Assembly (NCBI GenBank): GCA_026981635.1
Contig: JALSIF010000288.1
Coordinates: forward strand, 1 to 10,099
DNA length: 10,099 nt
Reading direction: 5' to 3'
Source of the DNA: JALSIF01 sp026981635 [NCBI: bacterium]
GTDB lineage: Bacteria; 4484-113; JALSIF01
The notes under the pieces were generated by a model. It saw nothing but the letters and a program-made list of their open reading frames with translations, made no database searches and was not told the DNA's origin. Shown here piece after piece: positions 5,470-9,832 of this stretch (positions within the stretch are counted from its first letter, which is position 1; each line of letters begins with the position of its first letter). Made by a program: the position numbers and the translations under genes.

Positions 5470-6825
5470 CTAGTCTTCCTTTTCCGCTTTCTTATCTAGG
5501 TTGCCTGCCTCTTTCTCCGCCTCTTCAGCTCCAGCCAGCTCCGGTGGAGGCCCGATGCGCAGGACCGGCATAACCCGGCTGCGTCTGGCCGGCTTAGCGG
5601 TCTTTAGGGCCTTATCAGCCTTGGGAGACTCTTTAACTTCGGGTTCAGCCTTGGACCGTTTGGCGGTATCCCCGCCGACACCGGTCTTCATCTCCTCAAT
5701 CACCACCGCCGGCCCAATGGCCAGACCCCTCGCTGGTGGCGCTTTTACCTTGCCCCCCGCCGGTGCAGCTGGTGAAGCACCGCCTGCCAGCTGGGGAGGT
5801 GAAACCTTTTTAACTGGTGCCCCTTGCTCGTGGGATACCCCTGTGCCCAGCTCGGGCCTGGGTCCCACTGCCGGCCTGGGGCCGCTGGGCGAGGGGGAAG
5901 TCCCACCCCTGCCCTTCCCCAGCTCTTCGGCCCTCCTGGGGGGGGCGACCCCGGGCAGTCCACCTGGGCTGGGGGATGGCTTGCTCTCCCCCTCCTCACC
6001 CCGCTTCTTCACCTTAATCTCCAAGGGAGGCTTGAGCTGCAGGGGCGGCTCCTTGTAGTCTGGCGGGACCTCGGTATTGCCGGGAAGGTCCAGGGCTACA
6101 AAGATGGTCCCCACCCCGGTGTCATACTTGACCACCTCGGTGCGGCCGTTTATATCGGCCAGCCAGAGGTACTGGGTAACCATCCCCACCTGGTAGCTGA
6201 GCTTCCTCGCCTGCCATGCCCGGTCGCCGGAGACCACTACCTCCTCCCCCACCGGGTTCCAGTAGGTCATCAGCACCCCCCGGTCCCCGGTGTGGTAGAG
6301 GGGCAGGTAGTAGCGCACATCGGGCCTGGGCTCGGCCAGGGGAAGCAGAAACATCACCTGCTCATAGTCGTAGACCGGTCCGCTCTTGGGGTAGGCGTAG
6401 CGCTTAACCCGGTCTCCCCGCCGCCGGGTGACCACGATGCGATTGGGAAGGTAGTCCACGATCCAGTAGGTGGTTTCCCCCGCCGCCACGATCTTTCGGG
6501 TGGTGCGCAGGGGGACTAACTGCTCGGGGTCAAACACCACCACCGACGACTCACTCAGGTTGGGCCCCTGGGCCATGTAGCGCAGCTCCCACATTCCCGC
6601 CCCGTACTCGGGGGAAGCCTTAACCACCTTGTAGTAGGCGGTGCCGATGCGCTTGCCGGTGGTGTCCTTGATGGCGTAGGAGAGCTCGGTGCCCGGCTTC
6701 CACTGGAAGGGACGAAAGGTGGGCAGCGAGAGCCGTACCACCCGCTGGGCGCTGGCCGGAAGGGCCAGGAGCAGCATCCCGACCACCAGGAGTACAAATA
6801 GTCCAATCCATCTAGCTCTCACCAT
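5470..6825 (-). CDS. Exported protein with Pro/Lys-rich C-terminal tail, function unknown
   Basis: A 451-residue protein I cannot assign. Residues 1-26 form a classical signal peptide: MVRARW, a long hydrophobic run, then LPASA with probable cleavage after Ala26. There is no lipobox Cys. Residues about 27-255 look like a compact beta-rich domain with many Tyr/Trp/Val strands (FQWKPGTELSYAIKDTTG, MWELRYMAQGP, WNPVGEEVVVSGDRAWQARKL). The pattern resembles DUF3108-like periplasmic domains, but that is an impression only. Residues about 256-451 are low-complexity Pro/Gly/Ala/Lys/Glu, probably disordered, ending in a highly charged KKAEKED-type stretch. It is transcribed alone, convergent with the FixX-like gene (21 bases between stops) and divergent from the pseudouridine synthase. 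Upstream GGGGGCGG is only a weak ribosome binding site. Confidence 0.8.
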   Translation of the reverse strand: MVRARWIGLFVLLVVGMLLLALPASAQRVVRLSLPTFRPFQWKPGTELSYAIKDTTGKRIGTAYYKVVKASPEYGAGMWELRYMAQGPNLSESSVVVFDPEQLVPLRTTRKIVAAGETTYWIVDYLPNRIVVTRRRGDRVKRYAYPKSGPVYDYEQVMFLLPLAEPRPDVRYYLPLYHTGDRGVLMTYWNPVGEEVVVSGDRAWQARKLSYQVGMVTQYLWLADINGRTEVVKYDTGVGTIFVALDLPGNTEVPPDYKEPPLQLKPPLEIKVKKRGEEGESKPSPSPGGLPGVAPPRRAEELGKGRGGTSPSPSGPRPAVGPRPELGTGVSHEQGAPVKKVSPPQLAGGASPAAPAGGKVKAPPARGLAIGPAVVIEEMKTGVGGDTAKRSKAEPEVKESPKADKALKTAKPARRSRVMPVLRIGPPPELAGAEEAEKEAGNLDKKAEKED

Positions 6826-6921: not shown

Positions 6922-7671
6922 GTGGGCAAGGTAGAGAGCCGGCGAGCCATGCGCATAAACCGCGCCCTGGCCTTCCTGGGGGCGGGATCAAGGCGCAGGG
7001 TGGAGGAGCTTATCCGCCAGGGCAGGGTCAGGGTAAACCGGCAGGTGGTAGAGGACCTCTCCCTGCGGGTGGACCCGTGGGAGGACCTGATTGAAGTTGA
7101 CGGCAGAAGGCTTTCCCCCCCTCCCCTGCTCTACTTTGCTTACCACAAGCCGGCCGGCATCATCTCAACCCTGCGAGATGAGCGGGGAAGAAAGAGCCTT
7201 GCCCCCATTGCCGCCGCCATGGGCGGGGGCGTCTTTCCGGTGGGCCGCCTTGACCGGGAGAGCGAGGGGCTGATCGTCTTTACCAACGACGGCGAGTTCG
7301 CCCACCGCCTCCTCCACCCCAGCTTTGGCTTTACCCGGGAATACCTGGTATGGGTGAGGGGCCGCCCCGCAAAGGGGGAGCTTTCCCGCCTCACCCAAGG
7401 GGTGGAGATCGGCGAACCGAGGAGGGCCCGGGCACTCGCGGTTGAGGTGCTGGAGCAAGGAGGGAGAGAGACCAAGCTCAGGGTGGTGGTGGCCGAGGGA
7501 AGAAAGCGGCTGGTGAGGAGGATGTTTCAGGTGGTGGGCCACCCGGTGATGCGCCTGCTCAGGGTCCGCCACGGCCCCATCCGGCTGGGAGGGCTGGAAG
7601 CGGGAAGTTTTCGGCCGCTTAGCGAAGGGGAGGTCTCCGCCGTGTTGGGAGGGGATCAAGATAGACGCTAG
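6922..7671 (+). CDS. rRNA pseudouridine synthase, RsuA/RluB family
   Basis: A 249-residue enzyme that isomerises a specific uridine in ribosomal RNA. An N-terminal S4 RNA-binding domain (about 10-62: MRINRALAFLGAGSRRRVEE, GRVRVNRQVV, LIEVDGRRL) is followed by the catalytic domain. That contains YHKPAGIISTLRDERGRKSL (75-94), the active-site aspartate D111 in PVGRLDRESEGLIVFTNDG, the tyrosine-containing FTREYLVWVRG, and the RKRLVRRMFQVVGHPVMRLLRVRHG motif typical of RsuA/RluB/RluE/RluF proteins. With this short form, RluB-like (23S rRNA, near U2605) is more common than RsuA (16S U516) outside enterics, but the sequence alone does not settle it. Start GTG 6922 fits the leaderless promoter; ATG 6949 would give the usual family N-terminus directly and is a fair alternative. 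Confidence 0.93.
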   Translation: MGKVESRRAMRINRALAFLGAGSRRRVEELIRQGRVRVNRQVVEDLSLRVDPWEDLIEVDGRRLSPPPLLYFAYHKPAGIISTLRDERGRKSLAPIAAAMGGGVFPVGRLDRESEGLIVFTNDGEFAHRLLHPSFGFTREYLVWVRGRPAKGELSRLTQGVEIGEPRRARALAVEVLEQGGRETKLRVVVAEGRKRLVRRMFQVVGHPVMRLLRVRHGPIRLGGLEAGSFRPLSEGEVSAVLGGDQDRR

Positions 7672-7686
7672 CGGCCCCCAAGTTGG

Positions 7687-7692
7687 TAAAAT
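7687..7692 (+). promoter_or_regulatory. Extended -10 promoter of rimP-nusA operon
   Basis: TAAAAT (5 of 6) is preceded by TGG, forming an extended -10 element (TGn). TAGACG at 7662-7667 could be a weak -35 with a 19-base spacer. It lies 16 bases past the pseudouridine synthase stop and precedes the attenuator-like leader, with transcription expected to start near 7699-7702. Confidence 0.55.
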
Positions 7693-7707
7693 ATGTAGCT
7701 AGGTGAA

Positions 7708-7730
7708 GGCAACTCGGCGGGGCGAGTGCC
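7708..7730 (+). promoter_or_regulatory. Antiterminator-like hairpin in rimP leader
   Basis: GGCAACTC (7708-7715) pairs with GAGTGCC (7724-7730): seven base pairs with one bulged A and an eight-base loop. Its 3' arm shares bases 7728-7730 with the 5' arm of the terminator hairpin, so the two structures exclude each other. It forms first during transcription. The regulatory reading is inference from this overlap. Confidence 0.45.
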
Positions 7731-7751
7731 ACCTTGCGGGGTGGCTTTTTT
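7728..7751 (+). terminator. Intrinsic terminator/attenuator ahead of rimP
   Basis: GCCACC (7728-7733), loop TTGCGG and GGTGGC (7740-7745) form a perfect six-base-pair stem, directly followed by six Ts (7746-7751). It lies between the promoter at 7687 and the rimP ATG at 7778. It therefore cannot simply end the upstream gene, whose stop is 57 bases earlier and beyond that promoter. The short stem is the kind of weak terminator that can depend on NusA. In B. subtilis, as I recall, the equivalent ylxS(rimP)-nusA leader carries a NusA-dependent terminator used for autoregulation. Confidence 0.7.
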
Positions 7752-7777
7752 ATTCCCGCCGGGGTAGTGAGAAGGAG

Positions 7778-8299
7778 ATGGAACTTACGCCAACACAGCT
7801 GGAAGAGCGGCTGGACCGCTTCCTCCACCAGCGCGGCTATGAGCTGGTTGCGCTGGAGGTTGTCCACATGCGCGGCGGGACCCTCTTCCGGCTGTTCATT
7901 GACCGGCTGGACGAGGAGCGGGTGACCATTGGCGACTGCACCAAGCTGAGCCCTCCCCTCCGCCTGGAGCTGGAGGCACTGGGGGTCTACGACGAGAAGA
8001 GTTCCCTTGAGGTTTCCTCCCCCGGCATTGAACGGGTGCTGACCAAGACCCACCACTTTGAGCGCTTCGTGGGCCACCGCGTCAGGGTTACCTTGCTGGA
8101 CGACGGCCTGCGCAAGACCATTGTTGGGGTGCTGCAGGGGGCCGATGAGGAGCAGATCTGGCTGGGTCTTGACGCCAGGACTTCAGCTCAACTCAAGAGC
8201 ATCTCCCTGCCCGATCCCCAGATTGAGCCCGGTGCCTTGCGTCAGGTCTCCATCCCCCGCGACCAGGTGCTCCGCTGCCAGCTGGTCGCGGAGTGGTAA
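7778..8299 (+). CDS. rimP: RimP, ribosome maturation factor
   Basis: A 173-residue RimP (older name YlxS/YhbC), which binds the 30S subunit precursor and helps its maturation. The N-terminal alpha/beta domain shows GYELVALEVVHMRGGTLFRLFIDR, the central motif VTIGDCTKLSPPL stands where VTLDDCE-x-VSR is usual, and LEVSSPGIERVLTKTHHFERFVG is the strongest family signature. The C-terminal SH3-like domain (about 95-173) follows. The length is near the upper end of the family norm. The ATG at 7778 matches family N-termini, but the AAGGAG before it abuts the ATG with no spacer, which is unusual. The frame is also open without a stop back to a GTG at 7703 just after the promoter, passing through the attenuator hairpins. 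First gene of the rimP-nusA-ylxR-infB operon; nusA begins 14 bases after its stop. Confidence 0.95.
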   Translation: MELTPTQLEERLDRFLHQRGYELVALEVVHMRGGTLFRLFIDRLDEERVTIGDCTKLSPPLRLELEALGVYDEKSSLEVSSPGIERVLTKTHHFERFVGHRVRVTLLDDGLRKTIVGVLQGADEEQIWLGLDARTSAQLKSISLPDPQIEPGALRQVSIPRDQVLRCQLVAEW

Positions 8300-8313: not shown

Positions 8314-9483
8314 ATGAAGCTGGATCCCGGAGTGGTTGAAGCCCTGGCCGAAATTGAGCGCGAGCGGGGGATTGAACAGGAGCGCCTGGTGGAGCTCCTC
8401 AAGGAGGCCTTCGTTGCCGCCTGGCGCAAGGAAAACGGCGAGGACAAGGAGATTCAGATTGAGATCAATCTTGCCGCCCGCCCCCCAGTGGTGGAGGGCT
8501 ACATAGAGAAGGAGGTAGTGGAGGAGGTAACTGACCCCTCCACCCAGGTGAGCCTGGCAGATGCGCGAGAGAAGGTGGGTGAGGAGGCCGAGGTGGGTGA
8601 CATCGTCCTGGTGGAGGTGGACCTGGAAGACTTCGGTCTGCTGGCGGTGGATTACTTCCGCCACCAGCTCCAGGAGCTGCTCAGGGAAGAGGAGCGGGGC
8701 CGGGTCTACGAGCAGTTCAAGGACCGTGTCTTTGAGGTCTTCAACGTAAAGGTCCTCTATCGCGACCGGGGCGATGTCTACGTGGAGGTAGAAGAGAAGT
8801 ACGAGGGGATCATCCCCCGCCGCGAGCAGATCCCCACCGAGCGCTACGACAACGGCACCCGCCTGAAGGCCCTGCTGATTGAAGTTCAGCCCAACCGCTC
8901 ACCCATGTTGGTCTTTTCCCGTGCCCACCCCAAGCTGATTGAAAAGCTCTTTGAGCACGAGGTGCCCGAGGTAGCGGAGGGAAACATTGAGATTGTGGCC
9001 ATCGCCCGCGACCCTGGCCATCGGGCCAAGGTGGCAGTCCGCTCCAAGATCCCCGAAATTGACCCGGTGGGAACCTGCATCGGCACCAAGGGCATCCGGG
9101 TTACGGCGGTCTCCAGCGAGATCGCCAACGAAAAGATAGACCTGATTGAGTGGAAGGACGATCCCTTTGAACTCATCGCCGAGTCCCTTAGCCCGGCCAA
9201 GGTCTATTCGGTGGAGATCTTTGAGGACACCAACCGGGCCGAGGTGATCGTCCCCGACGACCAGATCGCCATCGCCATCGGCCGCGGCTGGCGCAACGTG
9301 AAGCTTGCCTCCCGCATCACCGGCTATCACATTGAGGTCAAGTCCATGTCGGAAGCTGGCCTGACGCCAGAAGAGGAAGAGGAGGAGGGAGAGGGAGACG
9401 CAGATTCCGGCGAGCAGGCAGCGGAAGCCTCCGCCAGCGGAGAGGAGAGGGAAACTAGTGCCCAGGAGGTGGAGGGTGGCTAG
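8314..9483 (+). CDS. nusA: NusA, transcription elongation/termination factor
   Basis: A 389-residue NusA, which binds RNA polymerase, promotes pausing and intrinsic termination, and joins antitermination complexes. Domain order: the polymerase-binding N-terminal domain (1 to about 135); S1 domain (about 140-200) with YEGIIPRREQIPTERY; KH1 (about 205-280) with VFSRAHPKLIEKLFEHEVPE and an intact GTKG loop; and KH2 with SLSPAKVYSVEI and VPDDQIAIAIGR. The KH2 loop reads G323-R-G-W326 where GKEG or a close GxxG is expected, so the last glycine is a tryptophan. A Glu-rich tail of about 45 residues (PEEEEEEGEGDADSG onward) replaces the acidic repeats of proteobacterial NusA. ATG 8314 is supported by AAGGAGGT upstream; GTG 8308 would add two residues. 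The gene overlaps ylxR by eight bases. Likely autoregulated through the leader attenuator. Confidence 0.97.
   Translation: MKLDPGVVEALAEIERERGIEQERLVELLKEAFVAAWRKENGEDKEIQIEINLAARPPVVEGYIEKEVVEEVTDPSTQVSLADAREKVGEEAEVGDIVLVEVDLEDFGLLAVDYFRHQLQELLREEERGRVYEQFKDRVFEVFNVKVLYRDRGDVYVEVEEKYEGIIPRREQIPTERYDNGTRLKALLIEVQPNRSPMLVFSRAHPKLIEKLFEHEVPEVAEGNIEIVAIARDPGHRAKVAVRSKIPEIDPVGTCIGTKGIRVTAVSSEIANEKIDLIEWKDDPFELIAESLSPAKVYSVEIFEDTNRAEVIVPDDQIAIAIGRGWRNVKLASRITGYHIEVKSMSEAGLTPEEEEEEGEGDADSGEQAAEASASGEERETSAQEVEGG
9464..9469 (+). promoter_or_regulatory. Ribosome binding site of ylxR
   Basis: AGGAGG, six bases before GTG 9476 and inside the end of nusA. It favours GTG 9476 over the upstream in-frame GTG 9458. 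Confidence 0.8.
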
Positions 9484-9832
9484 CGCTCCCTGGGTTCCCA
9501 TCCGCACCTGTATCGGCTGCCGCCGCCGCCTGCCCAAGCCGCAGCTTATCGTGATCAAACTTAATGAGGGACGCTTTGAGGTCTACCCACCGGGCACCAA
9601 ACTGCCGGGGCGCAGTCTATATCTCTGTCCCCGGGCCGACTGTCTGGATAAGCTGAGGCGCCGCAAGAAGGTGGTTTTCAAAGCCCAGCCACCCGGCAGG
9701 TCTATAATCCCGCTCTCAAGCGAGGCGGGCAGGGAGCTGCTCGCCAAGCTGGCCCGGCTGATTGAGAGGCTCGGCCCGCCAGATGAGAACCGGCTGGCGG
9801 GGCCCGGTCAGGCCAGGCGGGGAGAAATGTAG
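9476..9832 (+). CDS. ylxR: YlxR (DUF448) RNA-binding protein
   Basis: A 118-residue basic protein of the YlxR family, encoded between nusA and infB in many bacteria. B. subtilis YlxR (RnpM) has been reported to bind RNase P RNA and lower its activity. The family signature is clear: RTCIGCRRRLPKPQLIVIK (C12, C15), then GRSLYLCPRADCLDKLRRRKK (C51, C56), where most members have GRGAYLC. The four cysteines could bind metal. The last ~40 residues go beyond the compact DUF448 domain and are Pro/Arg-rich. GTG 9476 is chosen because AGGAGG lies six bases upstream; it overlaps nusA by eight bases. infB follows after four bases, with no ylxQ (L7Ae-like) gene between, unlike B. subtilis. Confidence 0.92.
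   Translation: MASAPWVPIRTCIGCRRRLPKPQLIVIKLNEGRFEVYPPGTKLPGRSLYLCPRADCLDKLRRRKKVVFKAQPPGRSIIPLSSEAGRELLAKLARLIERLGPPDENRLAGPGQARRGEM

Follow-up and report, generated by a model that had tools for sequence, protein, structure and literature searches.

Attenuation before rimP in other bacteria and the locus examined

The rimP-leader heads the list of attenuated genes compiled by Naville and Gautheret (2010), and it is the most frequent attenuator in their survey (PMC2965389). Its general form is a short terminator with an unusual conserved stem, GGGc...gCCC, and no visible antiterminator. Since NusA is a repressor of the operon, it was judged the best candidate for the regulator, and the question of what reads the fixed stem sequence was left open (PMC2965389). 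In several Gammaproteobacteria a further terminator stands upstream in tandem; its motif is inverse, and it comes with a possible antiterminator (PMC2965389). According to the excerpted text of PMC4448216, transcription in Streptococcus agalactiae terminates 31 nt past the operon start, and feedback by NusA was proposed. The excerpts of a review (PMC12288461) describe B. subtilis NusA as autoregulated through attenuation in its leader; those of PMC8060035 make no mention of ylxS, rimP or autoregulation, and those of PMC12691694 hold nothing on the nusA leader. Feedback by NusA on the rimP–nusA operon has already been proposed or reported in other bacteria, and what is new at the present locus is the exchange of the two stem arms. 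Among the matches listed in a literature search, neither titles nor abstracts dealt with a reversed form of the general rimP-leader.

The DNA analysed here, called the window, is a stretch of 10,099 nt from JALSIF01 sp026981635 (contig JALSIF010000288.1), the features of which are collected in Table 1. With rimP and nusA confirmed by profiles, the leader lies where rimP-leaders are found, in the 5′ UTR of a rimP–nusA(–infB) operon. The infB gene is not seen in the window and would sit at or beyond its end, the last frame being without a family match in the profile search. The pseudouridine synthase gene and rimP are separated by 106 nt, and these two, nusA and the rnpM/ylxR-like gene all lie on the + strand. 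The start of rimP is consistent with the starts of its relatives. At 7770–7780, purine-rich AGAAGGAG abuts the rimP ATG with zero spacer, closer than a usual ribosome-binding site. Farther upstream, a frame of 451 aa on the − strand (5470–6825) has what looks by eye like a probable signal peptide, and its C-terminal half is charged and rich in proline; it gave no NCBIfam or Pfam match at E up to 0.001.

Table 1. Features of the rimP leader and its neighbouring genes in the window.
Feature	Position	Strand	Basis or remark
RluB/RsuA-type pseudouridine synthase gene, upstream	6922–7671	+	TIGR00093 above cut-off
Extended −10 box, TGGTAAAAT	7684–7692	+	sequence; predicted +1 at about 7699
Early competing structure, 12 bp	7701–7734	+	energy −14.8 kcal/mol; not clearly above shuffles
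Outer helix around the terminator, 10 bp, possible after readthrough	7713–7722 with 7754–7763	+	
Predicted 7-bp hairpin of the intrinsic terminator, GCCACCU-UGCG-GGGUGGC, a rimP-leader stem with its arms reversed	7728–7745	+	
Terminator U tract, six Ts	7746–7751	+	sequence
rimP, heading the operon, 173 aa	7778–8299	+	Pfam RimP_N and RimP C-terminal domain above cut-off
nusA, 391 aa	8308–9483	+	NCBIfam TIGR01953, 350 bits (cut-off 253); Pfam NusA_N and KH_5
rnpM/ylxR-like gene, start uncertain	9458–9832	+	NCBIfam RnpM model, 36.6 bits, under the cut-off of 80

The leader was compared across ten genomes of one small phylum, among which the window's genome is the sole member of its family. Of two scans for close relatives, one gave no match and the other eight NusA loci at 32–40% identity, none of them close. 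A rimP leader can be read in nine of them; the tenth (G009) was excluded, its rimP beginning at a contig end. The extended −10 box that the initial annotation had placed before rimP is there in the sequence, and TGN-TANNAT stands at the matching place in 8/9 phylum leaders, the ninth having CGCTATAAT. A two-hexamer sigma-70 scan lists no promoter at 7684–7692 (two sites elsewhere, 1.2 expected). With +1 assumed to lie 7 nt past the −10 box, the predicted +1 precedes the stem by 18–60 nt in the nine leaders. The leader RNAs L005–L010 tend to start with GACA or GUCA at the predicted +1, L003 and L004 less exactly so; the leader RNA of the window has neither there.

A terminator stem with exchanged arms

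The terminator claimed before rimP, a stem of 7728–7733 with 7740–7745 followed by six Ts, is present, and a further pair, U7734–G7739, brings it to 7 bp. The hairpin is predicted at −12.2 kcal/mol (z −3.64), with none of 200 shuffles equally stable. When the 120 nt preceding rimP were dinucleotide-shuffled 20,000 times, stems of 6 bp or longer with a loop of 3–8 nt and six Ts turned up in 3 of the shuffles. A loose terminator scan of the whole window gave 5 sites, below the shuffle mean of 8.0. From the end of the U tract to the ATG there are 26 nt, within the 4–130 nt at which the terminator and U tract of rimP-leaders precede the start codon, as predicted from sequence. In L005, L007 and L008 (the leaders of G005, G008 and G007) the likely rimP ATG lies 3–4 nt past the U tract; a purine-rich ribosome site is absent between the two, and the terminator practically touches the start codon.

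The same arrangement recurs throughout the phylum. Each of the nine readable leaders has a terminator-like hairpin before rimP, with the 5′ arm GCCAC (GUCAC in two), the 3′ arm GUGGC and then Ts, which bears out the promoter-proximal intrinsic terminator proposed ahead of rimP–nusA. Stem length and loop (3 to 42 nt) vary greatly among the nine, and the core is nearly invariant. Its five pairs show a single change, C-G to U-G in L007 and L008, and since this sole change is one-sided, the evidence for the terminator is sequence conservation rather than covariation. We regard the predicted terminator before rimP as real.

The polarity of this stem is what sets the locus apart. The rimP-leader has a G-rich 5′ arm, GGGc...gCCC, and in the window the two arms are exchanged. 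A canonical-type hairpin was defined by a 5′ arm G[UC]GG and a 3′ arm CC[AG]C, and the same finder was used inside and outside the phylum. The outside leaders came from two samples. The first held 61 leaders from 64 matched genomes (G025, G055 and G072 excluded); the second held 60 more genomes, taken from the higher-scoring among the matches listed (192 of 250 genomes matched), with some same-genus duplicates and all lower-scoring rows skipped. Among the resulting 121 leaders, 73 have the canonical type, 2 the reversed type only, 22 another terminator-like hairpin and 24 none. Three of the 73 canonical-type leaders also hold a weak reversed hairpin, and counting them makes 5/121 reversed. In the phylum, 9/9 leaders are reversed and 0/9 canonical, with 240 nt and 180 nt upstream of the rimP match searched for a canonical-type terminator. 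For reversed leaders in the phylum against 2/121 outside, Fisher's test gives P 2e-12 when related genomes are counted as independent.

The strict reversed core occurs in 0/61 and 0/60 of the outside leaders, and the wider definition admits two, L124 and L155. The arms read GGCCCACG/CGUGGG in L124 (G154) and AAAGCCGC/GCGGUUU in L155 (G127). Because these two leaders outside the phylum look arm-reversed too, the reversal may have more than one origin.

The strict core pattern GCCACN{3,33}GTGGCNTTTT has 12 sites in the ten genomes, of which 5 are rimP leaders, and its backward-read control has 6; the window's genome holds the strict core once, at the rimP leader itself. By inspection of open reading frames without profiles, five of the 7 non-leader sites lie beyond the end of a frame and two within or antisense to long frames, and none of the seven precedes rimP. 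The canonical-type pattern has 3 sites in the ten phylum genomes (backward control 7). The reversed core was found in 0/33 terminators from 346 kb of sampled phylum sequence, the canonical type in 4/33, by a finder stricter than that used on the 121 leaders, which recovers 8/9 phylum leaders. Judged by these patterns, the reversed core is not a general habit of the phylum's genomes.

The Rfam family RF01770 ('rimP'), which we take to be the gammaproteobacterial tandem form, gives no match in the window at E up to 1, and 0/10 phylum genomes score above its gathering cut-off; because it passes its cut-off in just 1/14 control genomes, the model is unsuited to testing for the general leader. Rfam as a whole gave no meaningful match in the window, three hits to microRNA, snoRNA and lncRNA families being at chance level, and the search of thirteen other loci gave no rimP match and one chance-level match to L20_leader. 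Set beside the known rimP leader RNA families, the element corresponds to the rimP-leader of PMC2965389 with its motif reversed, and does not match RF01770. The initial annotation had seen the leader terminator and had missed both its correspondence to a known family and the reversed polarity of its stem.

Competing folds and constraint upstream of the stem

An early hairpin of 7 bp with one bulge had been described upstream of the terminator. It is present and bulged; its length is 8 bp, made up of GGC 7708–7710 with GCC 7728–7730 and ACUCG 7712–7716 with CGAGU 7723–7727, and pairing of AGGU 7701–7704 with ACCU 7731–7734 lengthens it to 12 bp. The 12-bp structure spans the entire 5′ arm of the terminator, 7728–7734. 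The early hairpin alone has z −2.60 (2/200 shuffles equally stable), the 39-nt nascent leader z −1.26 (16/200) and the fold of the whole 83-nt leader z −1.91. The claim that only one of the two hairpins can form goes too far. Because the apical 5 bp (7712–7727) and the terminator do not overlap, and are predicted to reach −18.7 kcal/mol jointly against −14.8 kcal/mol for the early structure, the final state is not an either/or, and the competition is limited to the lower 7 pairs of the early structure.

In equilibrium predictions on the growing transcript the early structure dominates as far as 7740; at 7746 it is the terminator that is favoured (P 0.63). At 7749–7758 the minimum of the equilibrium model is a third fold (−20.9 to −21.2 kcal/mol), in which the U tract is buried and which may be unreachable during transcription. 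From 7761 the terminator is predicted to be clamped by the outer helix, which in its complete form pairs 7713–7722 with 7754–7763 and which dominates the full-length fold.

Constraint on the RNA ahead of the stem was measured in two same-genus pairs, L007/L008 and L009/L010, both outside the window's own genus. From the predicted +1 to the stem, 20/21 and 26/30 positions are identical, together 46/51, against 57% and 61% (about 59%) of the synonymous third positions of rimP in the same pairs (pooled Fisher P 1e-5). The 6-nt spacers between the −10 box and +1 match at 2/6 and 1/6 positions, and the 100 nt above the −10 box at 52/86 and 58/94 aligned positions. The excess of identity over synonymous sites implies that, in both genera, some element ahead of the terminator matters. 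L009 and L010 share two identical blocks of 19 nt, the first at the 5′ end and the second spanning arm and loop; these are mutually complementary, with a variable stretch between them.

A rival reading is a two-state switch, in which the early structure of 12 bp would act as a true antiterminator, with NusA, RimP, the ribosome or the speed of transcription deciding between the states. Its coverage of the whole 5′ arm, the constraint from +1 in the two genera and the complementary blocks all agree with such a switch, as does the predicted pairing of the 5′ arm before the 3′ arm exists, which is at least 0.60 in 6/9 leaders and 0.59 in a seventh. Shuffled leaders, however, pair the arm nearly as well. 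The combined P for mean pairing over the nine leaders is 0.09 (Fisher); for the opening energy of the arm it is 0.02 over seven genera, 0.03 with a simpler shuffle and 0.04 with the other members of the pairs; and the window's own values, 0.06 and 0.32, are not significant. In L003 and L010 the arm opens more readily than it does in shuffled leaders on average (P 0.74 and 0.75), in L007/L008 it is near the shuffle mean, and the state in which apical hairpin and terminator coexist lies 3.9 kcal/mol lower. Leaders of different families are unalignable by eye upstream of the stem, and shuffle tests took the place of formal covariation; compensatory changes could not be counted for the early hairpin because the families are unlike one another in the upstream parts. 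The arm-pairing shuffle tests prove no common upstream structure across the nine phylum leaders. The conserved two-hairpin switch envisaged at the outset is thus not borne out, its arm pairing being only marginally above shuffles in the nine leaders, and because of this marginal excess we keep a true antiterminator as a possibility on the unlikely side.

The structure of the 5′ RNA could instead serve mainly translation or mRNA stability, the outer helix clamping the hairpin after readthrough with little termination. The helix is GC-rich and strong in the leader of the window (P 0.006 against shuffles), where it dominates the full-length fold, and the closeness of start codon and U tract in G005, G007 and G008 would suit a role of this kind. 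Against it, the U tract follows the stem in 9/9 leaders and is not needed for such a role, and the outer helix reaches P <0.05 in 2/9 leaders only; as a common feature of the phylum it was rejected. We hold this explanation to be improbable.

That the hairpin is an ordinary 3′ terminator belonging to the pseudouridine synthase gene, with no part in rimP control, is very improbable and largely refuted: in the window this gene does share the strand of rimP, its end lying 56 nt ahead of the stem, and the nearest upstream gene of L006 (ribosomal protein S20) is likewise on the same strand, but the upstream frame is divergent in 7/9 members with the terminator retained (five confirmed by Pfam, namely phosphorylase/DUF3417 in L003, YbjN in L004 and LptF/LptG in L005, L007 and L008; long frames without a Pfam match in L009 and L010), and the extended −10 box precedes the terminator in 8/9 leaders. 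Because of these divergent frames the terminator is assigned to rimP.

Proposed control and comparison with known attenuators

The reading we favour with good, though not full, confidence is that the element is a cis-acting transcription attenuator of the rimP–nusA operon, of the NusA type. RNA polymerase would start about 29 nt ahead of an intrinsic terminator of weak to moderate strength; some complexes would halt in the U tract (at about 7751, giving an RNA of about 53 nt) and others would read on into rimP–nusA. NusA would raise the fraction that stops, as in other bacteria, and would by this keep its own production in check. Selection probably acts on the initial ~30 nt of the transcript too, which would tune the speed at which the terminator hairpin forms, in the window's genome by way of a 12-bp structure that would be obliged to release its lower 7 pairs. 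By analogy with those bacteria, control of the window's leader by NusA is likely. We infer termination in the cell, the effect of NusA and a tuning role of the early hairpin; the two-hairpin switch and the NusA feedback loop first proposed for this leader are likewise inference. Since the stem motif of the family is reversed here, a contact of NusA or another protein that needs the 5′ arm to be G-rich might not hold for this phylum.

The retention of the terminator with swapped arms throughout a phylum offers a natural experiment on what reads the stem of the rimP-leader. If NusA feedback survives the reversal, recognition does not rest on the strand order of the stem; if the feedback is lost, or the phylum's NusA has changed accordingly, the motif is a genuine contact for a protein. 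It is conceivable, although we think it rather doubtful, that the GCCAC...GUGGC hairpin of the phylum and the constrained 5′ RNA from +1 together form an attenuator read by NusA with a specificity unlike that of the GUGGG...CCCAC type, the contact in the phylum's NusA (or another factor) having changed along with it.

Compared with the general rimP-leader (PMC2965389, Figure 2b), the phylum's element is alike in being a single small intrinsic terminator just before rimP–nusA, 4–130 nt from the start codon, with a conserved stem core, a U tract and no large sensor domain. It is unlike the general form, GGGc...gCCC, in that the window has the 5′ arm GCCAC and the 3′ arm GUGGC, and in that its genome also has a competing 5′ structure. 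The upstream terminator of the gammaproteobacterial tandem form (PMC2965389, Figure 2a) is likewise inverse, CCCg...cGGG, and comes with a potential antiterminator; unlike that form, the phylum leaders gave no second, canonical terminator. With the autoregulation of B. subtilis NusA, as the excerpts of PMC12288461 present it, the window's leader would share the proposed logic of NusA-stimulated intrinsic termination in the leader of NusA's own operon, the dependence on NusA being reported for B. subtilis and drawn by analogy here. The element corresponds to the known rimP-leader attenuator, and it is best described as an arm-reversed variant of it.
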